Shown one piece after another: positions 23,573-34,429 of a stretch of 64,000 bases of DNA. Under the pieces are notes generated by a model that was not told the DNA's origin, searched no databases, and saw only the letters and a list, made by a program, of their open reading frames with translations. Positions within the stretch are counted from its first letter, which is position 1. Every line of letters starts with the position of its first letter. The stretch covers positions 2,666,001 through 2,730,000 of the forward strand of contig NZ_CP119108.1 of assembly GCF_029094505.1 (NCBI RefSeq), written 5' to 3'. The position numbers were made by a program, and so were the translations under genes. The stretch is from Microbacterium horticulturae. GTDB lineage: Bacteria > Actinomycetota > Actinomycetes > Actinomycetales > Microbacteriaceae.

Positions 23573-23869
23573 CTAGCGGACGACGACCGCCAGGACGTCG
23601 CGAGCCGAGAGCACGAGGTACTCGTCGGCACCGAACTTGACCTCGGTCCCGCCGTACTTGCTGTAGAGCACACGGTCGCCGACGGCGACGTCGAGCGGAA
23701 CGCGGTTGCCGTTGTCGTCGATGCGGCCGGGGCCCACGGCCACGACCTCGCCCTCCTGGGGCTTCTCCTTGGCAGTGTCGGGGATGACCAGACCACTCGC
23801 GGTGGTCTGCTCGGCCTCGACCTGCTGGATGACGATGCGGTCCTCGAGCGGCTTGATGGAAACCGACAC
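23573..23869 (-). CDS. groES: Co-chaperonin GroES
   Basis: A 98-residue Hsp10 with the full family sequence: '[47 protein letters not shown]', the mobile loop included, then '[36 protein letters not shown]'. It caps GroEL during protein folding. No groEL follows; in many actinobacteria groEL copies sit elsewhere. Two CIRCE boxes upstream predict HrcA control. Confidence 0.97.
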
Positions 23870-23904
23870 GGTCTACCTCTTCCTTCGTTGAGACTGAAGA
23901 CTGG

Positions 23905-23931
23905 TTAGCACTCAGACATCGAGAGTGCTGA
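23905..23931. promoter_or_regulatory. CIRCE element 1 (HrcA operator)
   Basis: TTAGCACTC-N9-GAGTGCTGA, a near-perfect match to the CIRCE inverted repeat bound by the heat-shock repressor HrcA. It lies 36 bp upstream of the groES start. Confidence 0.93.
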
Positions 23932-23950
23932 TCACAGTTTATGCACTCGG

Positions 23951-23977
23951 CTGGCACTCTCGCAACGCGAGTGCCAG
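23951..23977. promoter_or_regulatory. CIRCE element 2 (HrcA operator)
   Basis: CTGGCACTC-N9-GAGTGCCAG, a perfect inverted repeat with the CIRCE core and spacing, 46 bp (start to start) from the first box. It lies between groES and the Hsp70-like gene, about 43 bp upstream of that gene's predicted -35. Confidence 0.85.
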
Positions 23978-24019
23978 CCCATGTCGTGCGATCCACGAGC
24001 GGCCGGCGAATGACAACCC

Positions 24020-24048: not shown

Positions 24049-24173
24049 CGGGGGCCTGCACGGCTGTCCTTTCACACGGACGGCGAAAACCACGTACTGG
24101 GCAGTAGCGGCCTGGGTCCGCTGCGGAGGGTGTTCCGGTGCGGGGTGTGCGTTCGCAATGGGGGGCGAAGCAC

Positions 24174-26351
24174 ATGGGGCACGCGTACGCGATGGCGGTG
24201 CGAATCGGAACGAGCACCATCGCCGCAGCGACCGCGCACGTCGACTTCGACGACACCGTCGTCACCGAGCCCGCCCCGCTCGGACGCGACCACGACACTC
24301 TTCCCGCGGTCGCCTTCGTACAGGATGACGGCACGGTGCTCATCGGCGACGACGCCGAGGCCGCCGCGCTCACGCATCCGCCGTCTCGGATCGATGGGTT
24401 CACCGCCCTTGTCGGCGAAGACGTGCCGCTCATCGCGGCCGGCCGACCGTTTCTGGCCGAAGACCTGTTCGCGCGGGCGGTCGCCCACGTCGTTGCGACG
24501 ACCACCGCCGTCGAGGGGTGCGCGCCGCGTCGCGTCGCCGTCGTGTGCCCGCTCGGCTGGGGACCGTATCGGCGCACGGTGGCCGCTGCCGCACTGGCCG
24601 CTGTGGGTCTGGGCGACGTCGACCTGATCAGCACGCCGTTGGCTGCGGCACGCCAGCAGGCGAGATACCGCGCGCTGCGCGACGACGAGGTCTTCCTCGT
24701 GTGCGACCTGGGCGCGACGACGTTCGCGGCGACCCTGGTGGCCTCAGACGATGAGCGCAACCTGTGCGTGCGAGCCGATCCGGTCAGCCTCCTCGATGCC
24801 GGCGGCACCGACATCGACGACGCGATCGTGCGCCATGCCGCCGCGACCTCGGACGTCCTCGCGCGCACGCTCGCGGAATCCGACCCCGCCTCTCCCGGAC
24901 CTCTCGCCACCGTGCGCCCCGCATGCGCGAAGGCGAAGCATGCGCTCTCCGACGACGTCGCGGCTGTCATCCCGATCACGTTGCCGGCCGGTCGCTCGAG
25001 CATCCGCCTCACGCGCGGTGAGCTCGAGACGCTCAGCGAGCCACTCGTGCAGCGCACCCTCGACGCGGTCGAGGCGGTGCTGTCGGGCGCCGGGCTCTCC
25101 GCCGAGCGCATCGCGTGCGTCATCCCGGTCGGTGGCGGGGCGCGGATGCCGCTGGTCGCGCAGAAGCTCTCCGAACGTCTCTGCCGGCCGATCGCCGCCG
25201 ACATCGACCCGGCGTTCATCGCCCTGTTCGGGGCCGCCCACCTGTCGTGGGAGCGTGCGGACGCCGAGGCCGCCGAGGCGCCGGCCAGCGACGGCGCGTC
25301 CGCCGAGCAGACCGATGAGGCCGGGATGGACATTCCCGTCGAGAACGCCCCCGTGCCGACGGGCGCGAGCCGATTGGCCGACATGCGCGAGCTCGTGAGC
25401 GTTCCGGGCAGCCGCTGGTATTCGGCGGCCCTTCTGGCGGGGGCCGCGATCGTGGCCGCCGGCATCGTGCTCGGCGGATCGATGGCCGCCGGAACGCGCC
25501 TGACGCCCGACGACGTCGCGCTTCCGGCAGCCGACCCGGCGGACGACGACTCCGGTGTCGATGAGCACGAGGCGTCACGTCCCACGCCGGCGCCGGTGCT
25601 GCCGGGCCGCGTCGACACGCGCAGTCTGCTCGTGAGCGACCGGGGCACGGGCGCCGACCGCCCGCCGTCGCCAGGCGTCGGCGACCGCTTCATCAGCGAT
25701 GCGTCGCGCACCGAGGTTCCGGACGATCCGGCGGCCACCGCGCATCCCTCGGCACCGTCCGTGCCGTCAGCGGACCCGGTGATGGAGCGGCGCGACAATG
25801 CCGGCACGGGCACGACCGACTCTGCCGGCGCCACGACTCCTCGGCCACCGGCATCGGGAGACACCGCGGACGCAGATCAAGCGAACGCCGCGGATGGCGC
25901 CAATGACGCGTCCGGCAGCGCGGGCGACCCGGCCGACGCGGACGCGCCGTCGGAATCGGACTCGCCATCCGCGTCCACCGGGTCGACCGCCTCCTCCGGA
26001 TCCACCGGCTCGACGGGAACCACGGGCTCGACCGCGTCCTCCGGATCCGGCGACTCACCGTCGGGCGGCGCATCCGAGCCCGAGGGCAGCACCGAGACAC
26101 CGTCCGATCCGCCGGCTCCTGACCCCGCGCCGGCTCCTGACCCCGCGCCGAGCACGGACCCGGCGCCCTCGCCCGCACCCGACCCGACGCCGGAGCCTGC
26201 ACCCACGACTCCCCCGGCGGACCCGGCCGACGCCGAAGTACCGGCCGCTGCCGGCACCGAAGACCCCGATGGCGCCGCGGCCGCGGCATCCCCCACCACA
26301 TCCACTCCGTCGTCTGCTCCCGACGACTCCGACGACGCACGCGCCGGATGA
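24174..26351 (+). CDS. Membrane-anchored Hsp70-like protein with low-complexity tail
   Basis: About 725 residues. Residues 1 to ~370 form an actin-like ATPase of the Hsp70 family ('AYAMAVRIGTSTIAAA', 'FLVCDLGATTFAATLVA', 'IACVIPVGGGARMPLVAQKLSERL'), degenerate compared with DnaK. There is no substrate-binding domain. A membrane helix follows at ~415-440 ('YSAALLAGAAIVAAGIVLGGSMAAG'), then ~290 residues rich in Pro, Ser, Asp, Thr and Ala, probably outside the membrane. The ATG at 24174 aligns with family starts (MGHAYAMAVRIG); GTG 24138 has a better GGAGGG site and is a real alternative. It is the first gene of the LuxR/IniB block. Role unknown; a membrane stress sensor is plausible. Confidence 0.75.
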   Translation: MGHAYAMAVRIGTSTIAAATAHVDFDDTVVTEPAPLGRDHDTLPAVAFVQDDGTVLIGDDAEAAALTHPPSRIDGFTALVGEDVPLIAAGRPFLAEDLFARAVAHVVATTTAVEGCAPRRVAVVCPLGWGPYRRTVAAAALAAVGLGDVDLISTPLAAARQQARYRALRDDEVFLVCDLGATTFAATLVASDDERNLCVRADPVSLLDAGGTDIDDAIVRHAAATSDVLARTLAESDPASPGPLATVRPACAKAKHALSDDVAAVIPITLPAGRSSIRLTRGELETLSEPLVQRTLDAVEAVLSGAGLSAERIACVIPVGGGARMPLVAQKLSERLCRPIAADIDPAFIALFGAAHLSWERADAEAAEAPASDGASAEQTDEAGMDIPVENAPVPTGASRLADMRELVSVPGSRWYSAALLAGAAIVAAGIVLGGSMAAGTRLTPDDVALPAADPADDDSGVDEHEASRPTPAPVLPGRVDTRSLLVSDRGTGADRPPSPGVGDRFISDASRTEVPDDPAATAHPSAPSVPSADPVMERRDNAGTGTTDSAGATTPRPPASGDTADADQANAADGANDASGSAGDPADADAPSESDSPSASTGSTASSGSTGSTGTTGSTASSGSGDSPSGGASEPEGSTETPSDPPAPDPAPAPDPAPSTDPAPSPAPDPTPEPAPTTPPADPADAEVPAAAGTEDPDGAAAAASPTTSTPSSAPDDSDDARAG

Positions 26352-26366
26352 ACCCGAAGGATCACG

Positions 26367-27962
26367 ATGTCGACGATCGCAGCACAGACCGTGGCGCGCA
26401 CGCGCCCGTTCGCCGAACCCGGTCGTGCCGGGCCGGCAGGCACCGAGGCTCTGCACGCGCTGGGGGATCCGCCTGACGATGACGTGATGGCACGGGCGGA
26501 GGCATCCTGGCAGGCCGGAGACATCGACGGCGCCGCCGTGCTGCTCGACGGGACGGCCGACGACGGCGATCCCGCGGTCGCGACGCTGCTCTCGGCGGTC
26601 TGGGCCGCCCGCGCGATGATGCCGGTGGCCGCTGACATCGCCCAGCGTGCGGGCGACGACGGCGCGCTCGCGACGGCGGGGGCGACGCAGATCGCCGCCG
26701 GAAGGCTCGACGCGCCGCCGGCCGCTGCGGCTGATACGGCTCCGACGACCCTCGGCATCGCCCTCGCGGCGCTGACCGCCGGGTTGCGCTCATCCCTCGA
26801 GCCGGAGGTGCCCGCCGACACCCTGAGCGAACTGGCCCGCGCCTCGCGCCTGTACACCTGCGCGCGGGCGGCGACACCGGTTCCCGAGCTGCCGGCGGTG
26901 ATCGCCGCCGCCGCAGCGGTCGGCCTGGGCGAACTGCCGACGGCGACGGCCGTCATCGACGCCGCCGTCGCCGAGGGGCAGGGCGGGGCCTGGGCGCGCC
27001 GCCGCCTGCTGCTGTGGCAGGCGTGGCTCGCGGTGCAGTGCGAGCAGCCCGGGCAGGCGCAGGAGAGCCTGCGCGCCGCACAGGAGATCGACCACGCCTT
27101 CACTCCCCGCGACCGCTTCATCGAGACCGCCGTGCGCGTCGCGCTCACCCGGAGGTACGAAGAGGTCGCCGAACTCGAGCTGCTGTGGGCGCAGGTGCGC
27201 AACGAGGTGCAGCAGATCGACGTCGACCTGTTCCTGCTGCTGCCGCTGGCGACCATGATCAGCGCGGTGGCGCGGATCGGAGACGACCGCACACTCGCAC
27301 CCCTCCAGGCCGAAGCACTCGATCTGCTGGCCCGGCTGGGGTCACCGCCCGCCTGGTCGGCGCATCTGCGGTGGGCGGGCATCCAGCAGGGCATCCTGCT
27401 CGACCACCCCGACATGCTCGCCCCGCACGCGCACGCTCTCGTCGAGGCCGCCGCGCACAGCGCTATAGCGGCCACCATGGCCCGCGCCGGCAGGCTCTGG
27501 ACCGCGGTGCTGGCCGGCCATGTCGACCCCGACGCCGTCGAGCTCTCGGCCACGGAACTGGCCGAATGCGGGCTGGCGTGGGATGGTGCGCGCCTCGCCG
27601 GGCACGGCGCGGCCCGCTCCGACGATCGCCGGGTCTCGGCGCGGCTGCTGGCCTGTGCGCGGCATCTGCACCCGCCCACGCCGACGACGCCCGCCGCCGC
27701 TCCCGCCGAGAGCTCGACGCCGGCCCCGGTCCATCCCGCAGGGCTCAGCGACCGCGAGATCGAAGTGGCGCGGCTGGTCGTGGAGGGCAGGACGTACGCC
27801 GAGATCGGCGCGGCGATCTTCATCTCTCCCCGCACGGTCGAGCACCACATAGCCCGCATCCGCCAGCGGCTGCAGGCGACCACGCGATCGGACCTCGTGG
27901 CCCGTCTGCGCGTTGTTCTGACGGAGATGGATGCCGCGCAGGCGGCGACGGCGGAGGGCTGA
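26367..27962 (+). CDS. LuxR-type transcriptional regulator
   Basis: A 531-residue protein. The C-terminal ~60 residues ('LSDREIEVARLVVEGRTYAEIGAAIFISPRTVEHHIARIRQRLQATTRSDLVARLRVVL', from ~458) are a LuxR/FixJ helix-turn-helix. The N-terminal 450 residues are Ala-rich and look alpha-helical and TPR-like; no response-regulator, autoinducer or P-loop domain is visible. It starts 15 bp after the Hsp70-like gene. In Mycobacterium a LuxR/MalT-type regulator (IniR) acts at iniBAC, so control of the two IniB-like genes here is a reasonable inference. Confidence 0.85.
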   Translation: MSTIAAQTVARTRPFAEPGRAGPAGTEALHALGDPPDDDVMARAEASWQAGDIDGAAVLLDGTADDGDPAVATLLSAVWAARAMMPVAADIAQRAGDDGALATAGATQIAAGRLDAPPAAAADTAPTTLGIALAALTAGLRSSLEPEVPADTLSELARASRLYTCARAATPVPELPAVIAAAAAVGLGELPTATAVIDAAVAEGQGGAWARRRLLLWQAWLAVQCEQPGQAQESLRAAQEIDHAFTPRDRFIETAVRVALTRRYEEVAELELLWAQVRNEVQQIDVDLFLLLPLATMISAVARIGDDRTLAPLQAEALDLLARLGSPPAWSAHLRWAGIQQGILLDHPDMLAPHAHALVEAAAHSAIAATMARAGRLWTAVLAGHVDPDAVELSATELAECGLAWDGARLAGHGAARSDDRRVSARLLACARHLHPPTPTTPAAAPAESSTPAPVHPAGLSDREIEVARLVVEGRTYAEIGAAIFISPRTVEHHIARIRQRLQATTRSDLVARLRVVLTEMDAAQAATAEG

Positions 27963-27964
27963 CC

Positions 27965-28090
27965 ATGAACCACCTATTGACGAGCGCGGGGAATCGGGAA
28001 CAACCCCGATCCCCACGCACCCCTGAACGCGTAGCGTCGCACACACAATGGCGACTTCTGTGGAACCGAGCCGGTGAGGAGCGTGCATGA
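27965..28090 (+). CDS. Possible 41-residue leader ORF before the IniB-like gene
   Basis: An ATG two bases after the LuxR stop opens a 41-codon frame (MNHLLTSAGNREQPRSPRT...) whose stop overlaps the IniB-like start as ATGA. An inverted repeat (GGGGAATCGGG against CCCCGATCCCC, 27989-28015) lies inside. No recognised family and no clear ribosome-binding site; the frame may be chance. Confidence 0.2.
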   Translation: MNHLLTSAGNREQPRSPRTPERVASHTQWRLLWNRAGEERA

Positions 28091-29115
28091 TGACCACATT
28101 GCTGACCACGATCGCGGATGCGCTGATCGAGTTCATCCTCAGTCTGCTGCGGGACCCCGCCGCCGCGGCGGAGTTCGAGAACGACCCCGACGGCACACTC
28201 GCACGCAACGGGCTGACCGGTGTGTGCGCGGCCGACGTGCAGGCGGTCAGACCGGTCGTCATCGACCACCCGCAGGTGTCGGTGCGCTCCGTCCCCGATC
28301 CGATCGTGGTGCATGTGGCGCCGGCACCTCAGCCGTTCGCGGCCGACCCGATCGCCGTCCGTGACATCACGCACATGGCGCAGACGTTCCACTTCGACAA
28401 TCGGTCCACCATCATCGACCAGTCGGTGAACCAGAGCATCTGGGCCGAGGGAGACGTGACGCAGCAGTTCGATCACGAGGCCGTGATCGCCTCGGGCGAC
28501 GGCGCCAATGCTGCCGGACACGACGTCGACAACTCAACCACCGACGCCACGATGGGCGACGTCTCGATCGGCAACACCGACACCGACATCACCGTGGACG
28601 ACTCGTACAACGACTCGTCGACCGACAGCACCACAACCGTCGATGCGAACGTGGACGACTCGTTCAACGACAGCTCTAACGACACCGACGTCGACACGAC
28701 CGTCGACGGCTCGTTCAACGGCGACGGGGCGGCCCTCGCCGTCGCGGCCACCGGCGCTGCCGACGCCGCCGACGACGGCACCGCAGACAACGACAGCGCC
28801 GGCGATGCGGACGTGGATGCCGCGGCTGGCCCCGTCGACAGTGACGCCGCAGACAGCACCCCGGCGGCCGCCGACTCCGTCGCTGCAGACACCGTGGACA
28901 GTGCACCGCTGGACAGTGCACCACTGGACAGTGCACCACTGGACAGCGCACCGCTGGACAGCGCACCGCTGGACAGTGCACCGCTGGACAGTGCACCGCT
29001 GGACAGCGACCCTGTCGACGCGAGCGCCGATCTGAGCATCGACAACGCGCCGGACGACGCCGGCGCCTATCCCGAAACGGAGCCACCGATCGATGTCGCG
29101 TACGACGAGCCGTGA
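28087..29115 (+). CDS. IniB-like protein with acidic Ser/Asp/Asn repeats
   Basis: A 342-residue protein. Residues ~4-60 ('LLTTIADALIEFILSLLRDPAAAAEFENDPDGTLARNGLTGVCAADVQAVRPVV') match the IniB N-terminal domain. Residues ~100-210 form a Ser/Asp/Asn/Thr-rich module ('SGDGANAAGHDVDNS', 'GDVSIGNTDTDITVDDSYNDSS', 'DVDTTVDGSFN') shared with the gene at 33128-34270. An Ala/Asp stretch and eight PLDSA units follow. There is no signal peptide. GAGGAG precedes the ATG pair. In mycobacteria IniB is a glycine-rich protein induced by cell-wall drugs; its function is unsettled. Confidence 0.75.
   Translation: MMTTLLTTIADALIEFILSLLRDPAAAAEFENDPDGTLARNGLTGVCAADVQAVRPVVIDHPQVSVRSVPDPIVVHVAPAPQPFAADPIAVRDITHMAQTFHFDNRSTIIDQSVNQSIWAEGDVTQQFDHEAVIASGDGANAAGHDVDNSTTDATMGDVSIGNTDTDITVDDSYNDSSTDSTTTVDANVDDSFNDSSNDTDVDTTVDGSFNGDGAALAVAATGAADAADDGTADNDSAGDADVDAAAGPVDSDAADSTPAAADSVAADTVDSAPLDSAPLDSAPLDSAPLDSAPLDSAPLDSAPLDSDPVDASADLSIDNAPDDAGAYPETEPPIDVAYDEP
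28894..29013 (+). repeat. 15-bp coding tandem repeat, 8 copies (PLDSA)
   Basis: Units of CTGGACAGTGCACCG, with variants at T/C and G/A, repeat eight times in exact 15-bp register inside the IniB-like gene. They encode LDSAP repeats. Such perfect repeats probably vary in number between strains. Confidence 0.95.
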
Positions 29116-29716
29116 GCGGGTCCCCGCTCCCCTGCCTGCCGCCGCCGCGGACCAGGGCCACGTGCAACCAGATCGTCCCCAGCTGACCAGCGAGAACGGG
29201 GCGCCGGTGATCGTCAAGGTCCCGCCGCCGGTGTCGGTCCGCTTCGCGCAGCTGCTGTGGGTGCTGAGCTTCGCGCTCGGCGGGTTCTGCGTCGTGTACT
29301 TCTTCATCATCCGGCAGGACCAGCTGCCGCTGATCCAGGATGCGGTGCGCGCCGTCGACGACTCCCGCGAGAAGGCGACCTATCAGAGCGCCGCCGACAT
29401 CATCTTCTGGGTCTGCTTCGGCGTGATGGTGACCTTGTTGCTCGCGCAGATCACGCTCTTCGTGTCATTCATGAGCCGCCGCTCGGGTATCCGATGGTGG
29501 CAGCTGACGACGTTCCTGGTGCAGCTGCTGCTGTACCTGGTCGTGATCCAGCTCGCGGCCACCGGTCCACAGGGCGCCCTGCTGCGACCGGCGCTGATGC
29601 TGCAGTGCGGCTTCGTGCTTCTGGCGCTGCTGTTGAGCACCTTCAGCCGGGCCATCGCCTGGACCGCCCGCGGTCACGACGTCCGTCGCGTCGGCACCGC
29701 GGCATCCGATCTCTGA
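29093..29716 (+). CDS. Four-helix membrane protein of the IniB/dynamin block
   Basis: A 207-residue protein with a soluble N-terminus of ~45 residues and four hydrophobic segments ('FAQLLWVLSFALGGFCVVYFFII', 'ADIIFWVCFGVMVTLLLAQITLFVSF', 'LTTFLVQLLLYLVVIQLAA', 'ALMLQCGFVLLALLLSTF'). It overlaps the IniB-like gene by 23 bp, so the two are coupled. No family recognised. Its 3' 252 bp are also open in the dynamin frame on the opposite strand. It could be the membrane partner of the dynamins, but that rests only on position. Confidence 0.7.
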   Translation: MSRTTSRERVPAPLPAAAADQGHVQPDRPQLTSENGAPVIVKVPPPVSVRFAQLLWVLSFALGGFCVVYFFIIRQDQLPLIQDAVRAVDDSREKATYQSAADIIFWVCFGVMVTLLLAQITLFVSFMSRRSGIRWWQLTTFLVQLLLYLVVIQLAATGPQGALLRPALMLQCGFVLLALLLSTFSRAIAWTARGHDVRRVGTAASDL

Positions 29717-31162
29717 CGCGATCCGCTCCAGACTCCGCACCACGGTGCGCGCGGCCTGCACCCCGTCGCGCATCACCAAAGGCGAGGCGCTCACGGCCCG
29801 CCAGTGGTCGAGACGATCGTCGAGCCGCGCGCGCAGCGCGTCGCCGTCGGAGTCCGGCGGCAGGCCGAGGCGCAGCGACGCGTCGTCGCCTGCCCCTCCG
29901 ATGATGCGCTCGGCCTCGCGCACGAGGGCGGGCGGCAGCGTGACGTCGCCCGTGCGGATGCGCCCGAGCAGTGCCAGCTCGCGCAGCCCGTGCGCGCCGA
30001 CCTGGATCTTCTCGATGCCCGCCTCGATCTCGTCGGTCGACGGTCGGGGCTTCTCGGCGATGAGCTGGGTCAGAGCATCGCAGACAGCACGCGCCTTCAA
30101 GGCGGGTGCACGGGAGCGGAAGTGCATCCGGACGGTCGCGACGAGTTCGTTCAATCCGCTCTGGGCGACCAGCTGCTCGGCCAGGACGGACGAGTCGTCG
30201 GCGCCGCCGCGGATCAGCGAGGTCGCCAGGCGCACCCCGAAGATGCCGAATCGGTCCAGCAGCTCGCGACGGCTCGCCTCAGGAAGTGCGTGCGCGGTGT
30301 TGACGAAGCGGTCGGCCGAGACGAGCATCGGCTCGCGCTCTACGCGCTCCAGCTGCGCGAGGGTGCGGAAGCTGGCGAATTCGCTCTCTCGCAGCGTGCG
30401 CGCGCCCTCGGCGAGCAGGCCGGCCACCGGCATGACCCCGAGGGCGAGGGATGACAGCATCCCGTCCCGTTCGTAGCGCTCGGCGACCCGGCGCGCCGAC
30501 AGCAGCGAGTCGATGCGTCCCGATCCGATCTCGTCGGCGCGTGAGAGCACGGCGAGCGCATTCACCGTCTGCGCGGTGCCGGCGGCGGTGTCGCGGAACG
30601 CCTCGAGGAACTTGAGGTCCGAGGCGTGCAGGTGCCGGATGAGATAGAGGATGGCGTCGGCCGACGAGGGCGACTCTTCGGGGGTCAGCAGGGCGAGGGA
30701 CCGCGCCGAGAGATCCTGCGAGAGCGACGCGATGCCGGGAGTATCGATCAGCGTCAGCGTGCGCAGCATGCGCGACGGCCAGTGCACCTCGATGTGGTCG
30801 ACGTCTTCGGCCGCGTACCTGCCGAGGTCGAGGACGAGGCGGCCGGCCGTGCGCCGCACCGGAATCTGCTGCGCGCGGGCGCCGTGCGGGTGCACGGTGA
30901 TGGAGGGCACGTCGGCGTACCGGTACCAGGTCACCACGCGGGTGCACTCGCCGGCATCCGTGGGGGCGATCCGCTCGCCCAGCAGGGCATTGAGCAGCGT
31001 GGACTTGCCCGCCTTCACGATCCCGGCCACCGCCACCCGCAGCGGCTCGCGCAGCCGCTCCTCGAGCGCGCCGAGCACGCTCTGGGCCGCCGGATCGTCG
31101 CGGTACACGCCGCGCGCGGCGGCGACCAGCGTGAGGACGTCGGCGATCTCGCTGTCTGTCAT
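29465..31162 (-). CDS. Dynamin-like GTPase, IniC type
   Basis: A 565-residue frame. The GTPase domain has P-loop 'GIVKAGKSTLLNALLG' (47-54), G3 'TLIDTPGIASLS' and a G4-like 'AVLSRADEIGSG'. The rest is helical, as in bacterial dynamins. It is smaller than, and 4-bp coupled to, its partner at 31159-33024, as iniC follows iniA in Mycobacterium. From ~483 onwards the frame runs antisense through the convergent membrane gene and encodes a Gln/Arg-rich, unfolded-looking tail (HEAALQHQRRSQQ), suggesting the original stop was lost. Bacterial dynamins bind and remodel membranes. Confidence 0.8.
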   Translation of the reverse strand: MTDSEIADVLTLVAAARGVYRDDPAAQSVLGALEERLREPLRVAVAGIVKAGKSTLLNALLGERIAPTDAGECTRVVTWYRYADVPSITVHPHGARAQQIPVRRTAGRLVLDLGRYAAEDVDHIEVHWPSRMLRTLTLIDTPGIASLSQDLSARSLALLTPEESPSSADAILYLIRHLHASDLKFLEAFRDTAAGTAQTVNALAVLSRADEIGSGRIDSLLSARRVAERYERDGMLSSLALGVMPVAGLLAEGARTLRESEFASFRTLAQLERVEREPMLVSADRFVNTAHALPEASRRELLDRFGIFGVRLATSLIRGGADDSSVLAEQLVAQSGLNELVATVRMHFRSRAPALKARAVCDALTQLIAEKPRPSTDEIEAGIEKIQVGAHGLRELALLGRIRTGDVTLPPALVREAERIIGGAGDDASLRLGLPPDSDGDALRARLDDRLDHWRAVSASPLVMRDGVQAARTVVRSLERIASEIGCRGADATDVVTAGGPGDGPAEGAQQQRQKHEAALQHQRRSQQGALWTGGRELDHDQVQQQLHQERRQLPPSDTRAAAHE

Positions 31163-33024
31163 CCCTGATCCGGCTCCGTGATCGATCGCAGCGGAGGAAT
31201 CCGGCGACGCAGCCGGTCGAGCGCCTGCAACTGCGCTTCGAGTCGTGCTATCTGCTTGTCACGATCCGCGCTGTACGTGCCCGCCGCGTTGCGCGCGCGG
31301 TTCACCGCCTCGGTGAGCGAGCGGTGCAGCTCGTCGGCGATGCCGCTGAAGTGGTCGCGCGCGGTGCGCTGCACGACGCGCAACCGGTCTTTGAGCTGCT
31401 TTCCCGACTGGAAGATGGCGTCGTCGATATAGCGCCGCACCAGCGTCTTGGCTTCGAAGCGGCGCCGCGCCAGACGCGCGCTCATGTCTTCGCGGTAGGC
31501 GCGGCGCCCGACGAGCACCCCTGCCAGAAGCGAGATCGGGTTGATCAGCGTGAGCCCGATGAGGCCGGTGGCCAGCCCCACCATGAGCACGCCGCCGTAC
31601 GAGCCGCGCACGCCGATGTAGATCTTCTCGGCGGCCTTCATCCGTCCCGGGTCGAGATCGTGCGGCCGCTCGACGGCGTCGAGCACGCCGTAGGTGTCGT
31701 CGACCTCGATCGCGGGCAGCGTCCGCTCCTCTTCAGCGAACAGCTCGGCCACCTCTTCGGTGAGCCAGCGGGAGCGTTCGTTGGTCCACACGAACGTCTC
31801 GGCGACCGCCGCGGCCGTGCGCTGATCGATCCACTCGACGATCTGCTCCCAGATGGGTCCGGGGTCGCCCTCGTCGATGGCGTCCTCCGCTTCGCGCTGC
31901 ACCTTGCGCAGCCGCTCACGCAGGTCGTGCTCCATGTCGGAGATGAGGTCTCCGATGCCGTCGTTGAGCGCGATCTGCCATTTCGCCGTGCGTCCGCGAA
32001 ACTCTTCGGCACGAGCAGTGGCGAACTCCAGCTCGGCGAGGATGCGCGGGGTCTGGCTCGGATTGCGCACGGCCTCGAGCTCGGCACGTGCCGCCACCGA
32101 CGTCTGCTCGAGCACCGAACGCAGGTCGTGCGCAGCCGCATCCGCATGCAGCAGTTCGGCGCGTTCGACGACGTCGCGGCGCAGGTGCGCGACGAGCGCG
32201 GGAAAGCCCGACTCGGAGTTCAGCTCGCGGTCCTGCCCGGCTGCGGCCAGCAGGCGCAGATCGCTCGAGACGGCGAAGATCGGCACGTCACCGACGTCGC
32301 CCAGATGCCGGCGGTCGATCGACTCGATCTGCCGCCACTGCGGATACAGGTCGGTCTTCGCAAGCACGGCCGCGACGTTCGGCGACAGGCGCAGCGCGTA
32401 CTTGAGGAATTGCACTTCCGGCTCGGTGTATTCCTGCGAGGCGTCCGACACGAGAAGCACCGCGTGTGCCGAGGCCAGCGCCGTGAGCGTCGACAGGGCG
32501 CTGTGCGATTCGAGGCCGCCCACCCCTGGGGAGTCGACGAGGCGCAGGCCGCCCTTGAGGATCTCGCGCGGCAACGACGCCTCGGCGGCGACGATGCCCT
32601 GCTCGTTGCCGGGGTTGCCGTGCTCGGAGACGTAACCGGCCAGCTCATCGATCGACACCGGGCTGCGGTCGGTGCGCGTGTCGCCGGCCGCATCCGCGAT
32701 GCGGGTCACGATCCACGCGCGGGGCTCGCTGCCGTAGCCGACCACAGTGGGCACGCTCGTGGCGATGTCGTCGTCGACCGGACACACCGGGGCGTTCACC
32801 AGCGCGTTGATGAGCTTGCTCTTGCCCTGCTTGAACTCACCGACCACGACCACCCGCACGGCGGGGTCGCGCAGGCGCTCGCGGGCCTGGGCGAGGCGTC
32901 CGCCGAGATCGGTGCGTCCGGTCTCATCGACGATCCGTCCCAGCTCGTCGATGAGTTGCACGAGTTCGGTCGCCGACAGCGCGGTCGGCGCGATGTCACG
33001 CGTCTGAGCGATCGGCTCGGTCAT
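31159..33024 (-). CDS. Dynamin-like GTPase, IniA type
   Basis: A 621-residue dynamin-family protein starting at ATG 33024 behind GGGGAGGG. The GTPase domain has P-loop 'VVVGEFKQGKSKLINALVN' (62-69), G2 'ATSVPTVV', G3 'LRLVDSPGVGGLES' and G4 'AVLAKTDLYPQW'. A long helical stalk follows. The hydrophobic stretch ~476-505 ('YGGVLMVGLATGLIGLTLINPISLLAGVLVG') is the probable membrane paddle, as in IniA. The C-terminal ~100 residues are basic and coiled-coil-like. It pairs with the downstream IniC-like gene; heterotypic assembly at the membrane is likely. Confidence 0.85.
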   Translation of the reverse strand: MTEPIAQTRDIAPTALSATELVQLIDELGRIVDETGRTDLGGRLAQARERLRDPAVRVVVVGEFKQGKSKLINALVNAPVCPVDDDIATSVPTVVGYGSEPRAWIVTRIADAAGDTRTDRSPVSIDELAGYVSEHGNPGNEQGIVAAEASLPREILKGGLRLVDSPGVGGLESHSALSTLTALASAHAVLLVSDASQEYTEPEVQFLKYALRLSPNVAAVLAKTDLYPQWRQIESIDRRHLGDVGDVPIFAVSSDLRLLAAAGQDRELNSESGFPALVAHLRRDVVERAELLHADAAAHDLRSVLEQTSVAARAELEAVRNPSQTPRILAELEFATARAEEFRGRTAKWQIALNDGIGDLISDMEHDLRERLRKVQREAEDAIDEGDPGPIWEQIVEWIDQRTAAAVAETFVWTNERSRWLTEEVAELFAEEERTLPAIEVDDTYGVLDAVERPHDLDPGRMKAAEKIYIGVRGSYGGVLMVGLATGLIGLTLINPISLLAGVLVGRRAYREDMSARLARRRFEAKTLVRRYIDDAIFQSGKQLKDRLRVVQRTARDHFSGIADELHRSLTEAVNRARNAAGTYSADRDKQIARLEAQLQALDRLRRRIPPLRSITEPDQG

Positions 33025-33072
33025 GACGCCCTCCCCTTCGAGACACACCGTACGCCCGGCCCTGCGCGCGCA

Positions 33073-33112
33073 ACAGCGTGCCGGCAGCCCCGTGGGGCTT
33101 CCGGCACGCTGT
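33073..33112 (-). terminator. Long hairpin after the second IniB-like gene
   Basis: ACAGCGTGCCGG (33073-33084) pairs perfectly with CCGGCACGCTGT (33101-33112), with AGCCCC/GGGGCT extending the stem. It lies 16 bp beyond the IniB-like stop. The stem is strong but there is no T-run. It could attenuate transcription into the dynamin genes. Confidence 0.6.
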
Positions 33113-33127
33113 CGGGCGCGATGACCG

Positions 33128-34270
33128 TCAGAATCCGAGGTCCAGGTCGGCGTGGTCCCCGTCGCCGGCGTCGGCGCCCGGGCTGAACATGTTGCCGCTG
33201 TTCTCCCAGCTCTCCATGTCGTGCGAGTCGACCTCGCTCGTGAACGAGTGGTCGAACGCCGTGTTCACATCGACATCGGTGGACTGGTCGTTGAACGCGT
33301 TGTCGAACGTCGTGTCCACGTCCCAGTTCGTGTTCGTGGAGTAGTCGTTGAACGCGTTGTCCATCGTGACACCGATGTCGGTGTTGCCGATGTTGATGTC
33401 GCCGACATCGATCGTCGTGTGCGAGTTGTCGATGTCGCCGCCGGCGGCGTTCGACCCGTCACCGCTGCTCCAGACCGTGTTCTGGCTGAACGTCTGGTTC
33501 ACGTCGCCGCCCGAGTCGATGGCCTGGGTGACGGACTGGTCGTTGAGCGCGGCCCGGTTGTCGATGGAGAAGCCCCCCGACATGCCGGCTGCGGCGGCGC
33601 CCGCCCCACCCGCGGCGCCGCCGAAGTCGACATCGCCGAACCCGGTGTTGTACTGACGCACGCCGATGGTCGTCGAGTGGTCGTTCAACGTCTGCGTGTT
33701 GAAAGAGCTCGTCAGGTTGAACGAGTCCTGGTTGCGCACCTCGTTCGAGTGATCGGAGTCGTCGGAGTTGTCGGTGTAGTGGGAGTTGTCCGACTGGTCC
33801 TTGAACGCGTCCGTGATGCCGCCCACGTCGACGTTGCCGTCGTCATCGCTGTTGCCGTTGTACGAGTCGACGTCGTTGCCGTCGTTGCCGACCGTGTTGT
33901 CGTCGACGCTCGTGTCGACCGAGTTGTCGGAGCTGTCCGAGTGGTCGGAGTTGTCGACGGAGTTGTCGGTCGAATTGTCCGAACCATCGGCCGAAGCGTC
34001 CGTCGTCGTCGAGTTGTCGGAGTGATCGTCGGTGTTGGTCGAGTTGTCGGAGTGATCGTCGGCGTTCATCGAGTTGTCCGACCCGTCAGCCGAGGCATCC
34101 GTCGTCGTCGAGTTGTCGGTGTTCGTCGAGTTGTCCGACCCGTCAGCCGACGCATCCGTCGTCGTCGAGTTGTCGGAGTGATCGTCGGTGTCGTGAGAGT
34201 CGAGCGTGTTGTCGGACAGCAGCTCGGTGTTGAGCTGGGTGCCCAGGAGGTTCCCGTTGGAGTCAGCCAT
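33128..34270 (-). CDS. IniB-like acidic Asp/Ser/Asn repeat protein
   Basis: A 380-residue protein starting at ATG 34270 behind AAGGGAAG. Residues ~25-200 are tandem DHSDNSTNTD / TTTDASADGSDNS units made almost only of D, S, N and T. The second half repeats the module of the gene at 28087 ('SSGDGSNAAGGDIDNSHT', 'GDINIGNTDIGVTMDNAFNDYS', 'DVDVNTAFDHSF') after a Gly/Ala hinge. It lacks the IniB N-terminal helical domain and any signal peptide. The regular short repeats suggest a beta-solenoid or a calcium-binding disordered chain. It heads the same strand as the two dynamins, as IniB heads iniBAC. Confidence 0.7.
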   Translation of the reverse strand: MADSNGNLLGTQLNTELLSDNTLDSHDTDDHSDNSTTTDASADGSDNSTNTDNSTTTDASADGSDNSMNADDHSDNSTNTDDHSDNSTTTDASADGSDNSTDNSVDNSDHSDSSDNSVDTSVDDNTVGNDGNDVDSYNGNSDDDGNVDVGGITDAFKDQSDNSHYTDNSDDSDHSNEVRNQDSFNLTSSFNTQTLNDHSTTIGVRQYNTGFGDVDFGGAAGGAGAAAAGMSGGFSIDNRAALNDQSVTQAIDSGGDVNQTFSQNTVWSSGDGSNAAGGDIDNSHTTIDVGDINIGNTDIGVTMDNAFNDYSTNTNWDVDTTFDNAFNDQSTDVDVNTAFDHSFTSEVDSHDMESWENSGNMFSPGADAGDGDHADLDLGF

Positions 34271-34429
34271 TGTCTTCCCTTTCTCGCGGTGCCTGATGGC
34301 CTGCGTCGAGTCTCGACCGCCGGTGCGCCGGCGGCATCGGGGGGCATCCCCGCACTCGGATGCGCGCGTTAGGGGACGGCGGTGGTGCCCGTGAGGGTGG
34401 ATAGGGATGCCGCCGCCTATCGTGGGGGG

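Follow-up and report, generated by a model that had tools for sequence, protein, structure and literature searches.

A divergent, rearranged iniBAC-type module of Microbacterium horticulturae with a predicted IniR box and a catalytically degenerate Hsp70-like protein

The iniBAC genes (Rv0341-Rv0343) belong to a long-studied envelope-stress response of mycobacteria. Mycobacterial IniR activates iniBAC upon wall damage, and chromatin immunoprecipitation sequencing (ChIP-seq) in M. tuberculosis places it directly upstream of the operon (PMC5760070); trehalose (PMC5760070) and ATP (PMC6104191) have been proposed as its signals. IniA cuts membranes in vitro (PMC6715688), and loss of iniAC leads to less vesicle release (PMC11077946, reporting Gupta 2023). 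Here we describe a related module of seven genes at positions 24138-34270 of a 64,000-nucleotide stretch of Microbacterium horticulturae DNA (NZ_CP119108.1, 2,666,001 to 2,730,000; hereafter the window), in which the genes of an Hsp70-like protein, IniR, IniB1 and a four-helix membrane protein, TM4, face those of DynC, DynA and IniB2 on the opposite strand, all seven frames being open (Table 1). On the whole we think it probable that the module represents a divergent and rearranged envelope-stress regulon of the iniBAC type, inherited as a unit, with two arms switched by IniR and an Hsp70-like receptor. New in this work are a predicted 22-bp dyad box that links the two arms, the loss of catalytic residues of the Hsp70-like protein on at least five branches, and an IniR without its ATPase half. 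Among the openly readable papers listed in our searches, none treated iniBAC in Microbacterium, such an IniR box, or an Hsp70-like partner beyond one sentence on M. smegmatis, where the Hsp70-like gene adjoins iniR (PMC5760070), though the promoter structure may partly be in print.

The module compared with iniBAC and its inheritance as a block

From its protein matches we class the module as a divergent and rearranged system of the iniBAC type. A first-pass annotation of this DNA had called it iniBAC-like and had given the seven genes and their strands; each gene is located as an open frame, with families matched for most, and the description is borne out by DynA, which aligns near full length (query 29-612) with the solved IniA of M. 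smegmatis (6j72) at 408 bits, by the match of the LuxR protein to IniR, and by the IniB N-terminal domain of IniB1. We call it iniBAC-related, and not an iniBAC operon, because IniR scores 230 bits against NCBI's curated cut-off of 750 and model positions 1-380 are absent. Like mycobacterial iniBAC, in which IniR is Rv0339c, the window has an IniR homologue, a protein with the IniB N-terminal domain, an IniA-like dynamin with a second dynamin adjacent to it, and a related promoter dyad, and the Hsp70-like gene adjoins iniR in five of six mycobacterial-type loci (L168, L169, L170, L172 and L173), lying beside dynC in the sixth (L171). Unlike mycobacterial iniBAC, its IniR has no ATPase half, there are two IniB-like proteins, one of them without the N-domain, a four-helix protein has been added (the TM4 profile finds none in the six mycobacterial-type loci), and the layout is inverted, in two arms. 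The order iniB2-dynA-dynC matches iniB-iniA-iniC, yet IniB2 lacks the N-domain and iniB1 stands in the other arm.

These comparisons alter two of the earlier descriptions. The Hsp70-like, LuxR and membrane proteins had been taken as extra partners, which is true of the four-helix protein, but the LuxR protein is not extra since it is the IniR homologue itself, and the Hsp70-like gene also stands beside iniR in mycobacterial-type loci. The second IniB-like protein is IniB-like in its repeat and core part, which resemble IniB1, but its N-terminal domain is unmatched; Pfam and NCBIfam searches gave IniB2 no family match above cut-off, the IniB N-terminal domain included. The same searches of the window proteins gave none for TM4, for which four transmembrane helices are predicted in 73 of 83 profile matches, the window among them.

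DynC adjoins DynA on the same strand and scores 36 bits against IniA and 44 bits against BDLP. In having two adjacent dynamin-like GTPases the module resembles Campylobacter DLP1/2 and Streptomyces DynA/DynB, and by analogy with such bacterial pairs (PMC6104087, PMC6715688) this suggests heterotypic assembly; unlike in those systems, the near-full-length match of the window DynA is IniA (408 bits), the other dynamins matching only partly.

The genes had been proposed to form a single module, with a survey of relatives for co-conservation named as the test, and the survey upholds the proposal. We compared the best 80 of at least 574 loci found with a DynA profile among named genomes, mostly of Microbacterium or other Micrococcales; as these were picked for having DynA, they test its neighbours and not its frequency. 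Profile matches to all six core genes (Hsp70-like, IniR, IniB with the N-domain, DynA, DynC and TM4) occur in 64 of the 80, completeness here meaning that matches are present and not that frames are intact, as in L050 the Hsp70-like gene, and in L040 iniR, is split over two frames. In 15 of the 16 incomplete loci, judged from their spans, the contig stops on the side where the gene is missing; L115 alone has room for TM4 and lacks it. TM4 is present in 75 of the 80. Wherever both the Hsp70-like gene and iniR are found (65 loci), they lie on the same strand.

The 15 genomes with DynA, among 59 of the genus, are exactly those with a module-type Hsp70, module-type meaning an E value of 5e-23 or better and not the full DnaK type, so that partial Hsp70 matches at 1e-4 to 5e-4 (G120, G139, G154 and G156) and second full-length Hsp70s (G132 and G136) are not counted; strong IniR matches occur in these 15 and in G114 and G155. 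Strong DynA matches were found in 8 of 100 genomes of the family, with four more weak ones; the seven genomes with strong matches other than the window's all carry the partners, those of G044 spread over two contigs. The groES gene and a methyltransferase gene lie on one contig in 53 of the 59 genus genomes. In the 39 of these without strong IniR, the gap between them measures 92-248 bp in 35 and 1.2-3.4 kb in the other four; in the 14 with IniR, it lies within a gap of 10.5-12.4 kb in 11 and elsewhere in three, G114 and G155 being two of these. It seems probable, as part of the overall reading given above and to the same degree, that the module is gained and lost as one unit, usually between groES and the methyltransferase gene. 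The idea that the genes are chance neighbours is ruled out by their co-conservation, the identical genome sets of DynA and Hsp70 and the presence of the block at one site. In four loci (L055, L065, L071 and L072) the module lies between groES and a RarD-like gene, that is, on the other side of groES, and therefore groES or the block has moved.

The layout could be decided in 71 of the 80 loci: 21 are collinear (Hsp70 > IniR > IniB > DynA > DynC < TM4) and 50 are inverted like the window, the second IniB of the inverted type having no N-domain match. The facing arrangement is probably derived: it would have arisen by inversion from the collinear one, through duplication of iniB and then a flip of the iniB2-dynA-dynC-TM4 block. 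Two loci of the collinear type, L092 and L111, have tandem IniB genes, in L092 with an identical box before each, and perhaps resemble the state before the inversion.

A predicted IniR site before both iniB genes

An expectation-maximisation search over 73 IniR-IniB intergenic regions, the window excluded, found a 22-bp dyad, roughly GCATCGGGGnnAACCCCGATGC, at 21.7 bits. (Copies L088, L099 and L109, of L026, L027 and L028, were dropped from this training, from the spacing count below and from the Hsp70 states counted on the DynA tree, and kept in the counts over 80 loci, 77 regions and 86 loci.) Scanning the 64-kb window with the resulting matrix gave two matches of at least 15 bits, both of them at iniB promoters (23.1 and 15.7 bits), the next best scoring 9.1. 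The whole genome (one contig of 3.65 Mb) holds 11 matches to the dyad pattern, and only the two module sites combine a score of at least 15 with a -10-like element. That the boxes are common GC-rich dyads was considered and rejected: the non-module match L198 (23.0 bits) falls, as read by eye, within the last part of a coding frame, and no hexamer follows it.

The spacing to the putative -10 element is nearly invariant. In 63 of the 66 iniB1 promoters counted, a TAnnnT hexamer starts 19 or 20 bp downstream of the box, and within 45 bp no other offset has it; the 8 of 74 promoters without a box of at least 12 bits were left out of the count. At 32 iniB2 sites, 12 have TAnnnT, 19 have nA(C/G/A)ACT at about the same spacing, a class read by eye after looking and in hand-set stretches, and one (L047) has no box. 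A box of at least 12 bits stands within 700 bp before iniB2 in 26 of 41 inverted-type loci, the window included and the iniB2 sites all outside the training set (9 of the 50 inverted loci had too little upstream DNA for this test and were excluded); the density there is 77-fold that elsewhere, where 10 matches fall in 817 kb. CCCCTA words are likewise enriched, in 36 of 77 regions against a shuffled mean of 5.7 and a shuffled maximum of 15. For the mycobacterial-type loci, the Micrococcales matrix has no match before iniB, its one match of 14.7 bits (L172) lying inside the DynA frame; a looser dyad chosen after looking, GGGG-N6-CCCCG, precedes iniB in five of the six, each time with TAACGT or TAGCGT in the tail.

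Counting the -10 hexamer as -12 to -7, the dyad is centred near -43. LuxR-type activators usually act near this position. The dyad is probably IniR's site, and to judge from the predicted sites before both iniB genes, it would be a shared regulatory element that joins the two arms of the module. Some observations weigh against this assignment. Taken alone, box 2 is weak: 30 shuffled windows average 0.2 matches of at least 15 bits, and their best reaches 18.5, so that this box needs the support of the relatives, and 15 of the 41 inverted loci show no box in the 700 bp scanned before iniB2. Nor need the dyad be IniR's, because another regulator, HpoR, has its own, different palindrome in the mycobacterial iniBAC promoter (PMC13413693); a term search of PMC5760070 returned no motif or palindrome described for IniR.

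The Hsp70-like protein, IniR and a putative membrane receptor

In E. coli DnaK numbering, D8, E171, D194, T199 and D201 are catalytic residues. Mapped on the genome's own DnaK, the Hsp70-like protein of the window has R, T, D, T and A at these positions. Its PF00012 match (1e-22 over residues 102-367 in the family search) stops at model position 369 of 599, and for this reason no substrate-binding domain is seen. Downstream of the nucleotide-binding domain, a hydropathy scan marks a hydrophobic segment at 419-437, and the protein ends in a tail of 288 residues rich in Ala, Pro, Ser and Asp. The scan is a simple one and its helix calls are rough, as it also flags 173-191 inside the Hsp70-like domain and one stretch each in IniR and IniB1. 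Beyond residue 350, 66 of 71 Hsp70-like open reading frames have a hydrophobic segment. The first-pass annotation had offered two roles for this protein, sensor or remodelling ATPase. With R, T and A in place of D8, E171 and D201, a working ATPase is unlikely in the window genome; a sensor is possible.

The catalytic loss is not confined to the window. Across 86 scored loci, three of them copies, all five residues are kept in 58, four in 3 and three or fewer in 25 (the better of two Hsp70-like genes was taken per genome, and L050 and L179 were left unscored). The protein is degenerate also in the mycobacterial-type loci and in the nearest named relative, L087, and intact in all seven scored loci that come from other classes of the phylum. 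With 55 intact and 24 lost states counted on a DynA tree of 99 rows, the fewest changes are 8, and the starred branches force at least 5; this is a quick tree (LG+G4) that carries a warning of long branches that meet. We read the changes as losses because the regain of several residues is unlikely. The ratio of nonsynonymous to synonymous substitution rates (dN/dS) is 0.06-0.46 in 8 lost-type pairs against 0.05-0.49 in 9 intact pairs, figures that include several pairs with dS above 1 (the IniR values of two intact pairs, over 70 and 84 residues, were unused). By these estimates the Hsp70-like protein is under purifying selection that appears somewhat relaxed.

The regulator has lost a part of its own. 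The window IniR starts 15 bp after the stop codon of the Hsp70-like gene and aligns only from model position 381, and no ATPase profile matches it or P0150, a homologue of 536 residues that is 78% identical over 99% and shortened likewise. P0150 is probably on the same contig as homologues of DynA (P0013, 95%) and of the Hsp70-like protein (P0133, 73% over 67%), since the longest contigs of all three are equal in length (9622), P0133 having, by eye, E, T, D, T and T at the five catalytic positions. L087 has a full-length IniR, with GSAGSGKS. The P-loop part is lost and the rear of the ATPase kept in seven Arthrobacter relatives (L097, L101, L108, L110, L113, L114 and L115) and Compostimonas (L028), with Hsp70 intact; L095 has lost the same part, its Hsp70 lying beyond the contig. 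Over 80 loci the loss of the IniR ATPase does not clearly track the loss in Hsp70: 42 are intact with ATPase, 21 lost with ATPase, 13 intact with none and 4 lost with none. The strict motif and profile miss the P-loops of L040 and L041 (GTARSGKT) and L042 (GNAGSGKT) and are ambiguous for L175, L182, L183 and L184; with these set aside, the window is what is left of the class that lacks both.

On one strand, iniR is paired with the Hsp70-like gene, and a conserved dyad with a -10-like hexamer at fixed spacing precedes both iniB1(-TM4) and iniB2-dynA-dynC. In the mechanism that we propose, IniR would bind both dyads as an activator near -43, turning on both arms together upon envelope damage. 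DynA and DynC would act as a heterotypic dynamin pair that remodels or pinches off the cytoplasmic membrane, with TM4 and the acidic IniB proteins serving as a scaffold or adaptor on the membrane side; homology to mycobacteria leads us to expect that the module remodels or sheds membrane when the envelope is stressed. The first-pass annotation had likewise put forward a sensing of general envelope damage, in an organism presumed to lack mycolic acids, and IniB proteins as scaffold or cargo, which we keep as possible readings. The Hsp70-like protein, considering its gene pairing, topology and loss of catalysis, is most likely a membrane receptor of IniR: a one-helix receptor or tether, and not a chaperone, whose cytoplasmic Hsp70 fold would hold or release the regulator. 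As neither protein of the window lineage has a recognisable ATPase, signalling would proceed by binding and not by ATP hydrolysis, and the signal in the window should need no IniR ATPase.

A precedent in role, though not in kinship, would be MalT, which serves the maltose regulon of E. coli as a signal-transduction ATPase and is held by the protein MalK. As with MalT, the regulator has the gene of a membrane partner next to its own; unlike MalT and MalK, the window IniR has no P-loop ATPase, the partner is Hsp70-like, and the contact between the two is a proposal. The middle part of IniR has been likened to MalT domain III (Boot 2017, PMC5760070).

The extension of this scheme to iniBAC-linked Hsp70-like proteins in general is tentative, and we give it less than an even chance. 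These proteins may be membrane pseudo-Hsp70 receptors, with a wall-reaching tail outside, one helix, and an inner Hsp70 fold that gates IniR by binding, hydrolysis having been dropped repeatedly (in mycobacterial-type loci and in several Micrococcales lineages) and the IniR ATPase having gone too in the window lineage. If so, the sensing of ATP by IniR through its ATPase domain (PMC6104191) would not be general, and the Hsp70-like protein would be the sensor of envelope damage; recurrent loss of catalysis under purifying selection would make a clear case of a pseudo-ATPase turned receptor. The relatives offer natural experiments, with loci that have both ATPases, one only or, as in the window, neither, and the predicted IniR box with its fixed -10 spacing makes the regulon approachable outside mycobacteria.

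Several points count against the overall reading given at the outset. We infer the contact between the Hsp70-like protein and IniR from gene order alone. The Hsp70-like protein evolves fast (its identity to L087 is 52%, that of DynA 87%), and at moderate distance dN/dS tends to be higher in lost-type pairs (0.42-0.46 in four of them) than in most intact ones, a sign of some relaxation. The loss of both ATPases could itself mean a decaying or constitutive sensor, and the module is patchy (strong DynA in those 8 of 100 family genomes) and therefore not an essential response. This double loss, the high divergence of Hsp70 and its dN/dS of 0.42 between the window and L087 speak for a regulator half in decay, in which IniR has lost its sensor ATPase, its Hsp70-like partner is under relaxing constraint, and the switch of a still useful dynamin-IniB operon has become constitutive or dead. 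We regard this as unlikely: all seven window frames are open, the short IniR is kept at 78% identity in P0150, on what is likely a contig that also holds a degenerate Hsp70 and a 95% DynA, the Hsp70 dN/dS is well under 1, and both promoters keep their boxes.

A working chaperone, or an ATP-driven remodeller that loads or disassembles the dynamins or IniB, is less probable still. The R, T and A of the window, the degenerate Hsp70 of L087 and the mycobacterial-type loci and the want of a substrate-binding domain match all argue against it, although the Hsp70 fold is present and ATPase activity may well have been ancestral, because the five tested residues are kept in 58 of 86 loci (3 of them copies). 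A role of the module in anti-phage defence or another conflict, as an island with dynamins that is patchy and inherited block-wise, we find very improbable. Its presence or absence at one site and its apparent transfer between families would fit such a role, and PADLOC Leo models match DynA (up to 73 bits, LeoBC) and DynC (41 bits); however, they match none of the other five proteins (Hsp70-like, IniR, IniB1, IniB2 and TM4), and the closer kin of DynA and the regulator are IniA (408 bits) and IniR. A phage or defence island was rejected as the Leo matches are restricted to the dynamins; IniR also matched a CARF profile (23.5 bits) through its helix-turn-helix part.

Wider distribution and features of the locus

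Beyond the genus, IniR is found at an E value of 1e-20 or better in 16 of 396 genomes of the phylum. Among 17 stretches from 15 of these 16 genomes, the Hsp70-like protein scores at least 120 bits in 16, both dynamins are present in 14, and TM4 occurs in L176 only; of the three stretches without dynamins, L174 and L175 hit a contig end and that of L179 stops within the Hsp70-like gene, and L177 has no IniB match. Because the set of Hsp70, IniR, IniB and dynamins recurs in these stretches, it looks old in the phylum, and TM4 would belong to the Micrococcales form. On the quick DynA tree, the inverted-type modules of L040, L041, L047 and L104 (Propionibacteriaceae-type metagenome-assembled genomes and Phycicoccus elongatus) nest among those of Microbacterium, which suggests transfer between families. 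IniR matches below 1e-80 are found in 46 of 149 genus genomes, including at least the paralogues of G114, G155 and G218, which have no module. These IniR-like regulators (L188, L189 and L190) are 41-43% identical and have no iniBAC genes beside them; a small surface-type protein with, by eye, an LPQTG- or LAHTG-like end lies near L188 and L189, and the paralogue may control another system.

Table 1. Features of the iniBAC-related module and its promoters (positions within the window)
Feature	Position	Strand	Evidence and remarks
Hsp70-like protein	24174..26351	+	GTG 24138 as alternative start; PF00012 80.6 bits, hydropathy, tail, catalytic residues
LuxR/IniR-type regulator without N-terminal AAA+ ATPase half	26367..27962	+	NF038181 4.4e-68, model 381-826/827
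Predicted IniR box 1 (dyad), upstream of iniB1	27991..28012	+	23.1 bits, top score in 64 kb; matrix trained without the window
-10-like hexamer TAGCGT	28032..28037	+	19 bp after box 1
IniB1: IniB N-terminal domain, conserved core, acidic Asp/Ser-rich tail	28087..29115	+	NF038175 75.7 bits (2e-21; cut-off 40); charge -64
Four-helix membrane protein TM4	29093..29716	+	4 predicted transmembrane helices
DynC, second dynamin-like GTPase, IniC-like position	29465..31162	-	Dynamin_N 2.3e-12
DynA, IniA-like dynamin GTPase	31159..33048	-	Dynamin_N 2.9e-18; hydrophobic segment 487-505
Inverted repeat between iniB2 and dynA	33065..33120	.	27-nt arms, 2-nt gap, 89% complementary
IniB2: acidic Asp/Asn/Ser/Thr-rich IniB-like protein	33128..34270	-	without IniB N-terminal domain; charge -76
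-10-like hexamer GAGACT	34309..34314	-	19 bp after box 2
Predicted IniR box 2, upstream of iniB2	34334..34355	-	15.7 bits, second-best score in 64 kb

The inverted repeat between iniB2 and dynA is possibly an attenuator or a processing hairpin and could reduce expression of dynA-dynC relative to iniB2; unequal stoichiometry has been suggested in mycobacteria (PMC5760070, discussion). No structural RNA was found at gathering scores within the window. The 3' ends of dynC and the TM4 gene overlap antisense by 252 bp (29465-29716), an overlap whose length varies among relatives and which is seemingly absent in L083. Two inverted repeats resembling CIRCE, the HrcA operator, lie at 23902-23934 and 23949-23979, between groES (23573-23869, minus strand) and the Hsp70-like gene. 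In the tail of IniB1, 7.9 copies of a 15-bp tandem repeat (28890-29006) code for DSAPL units.

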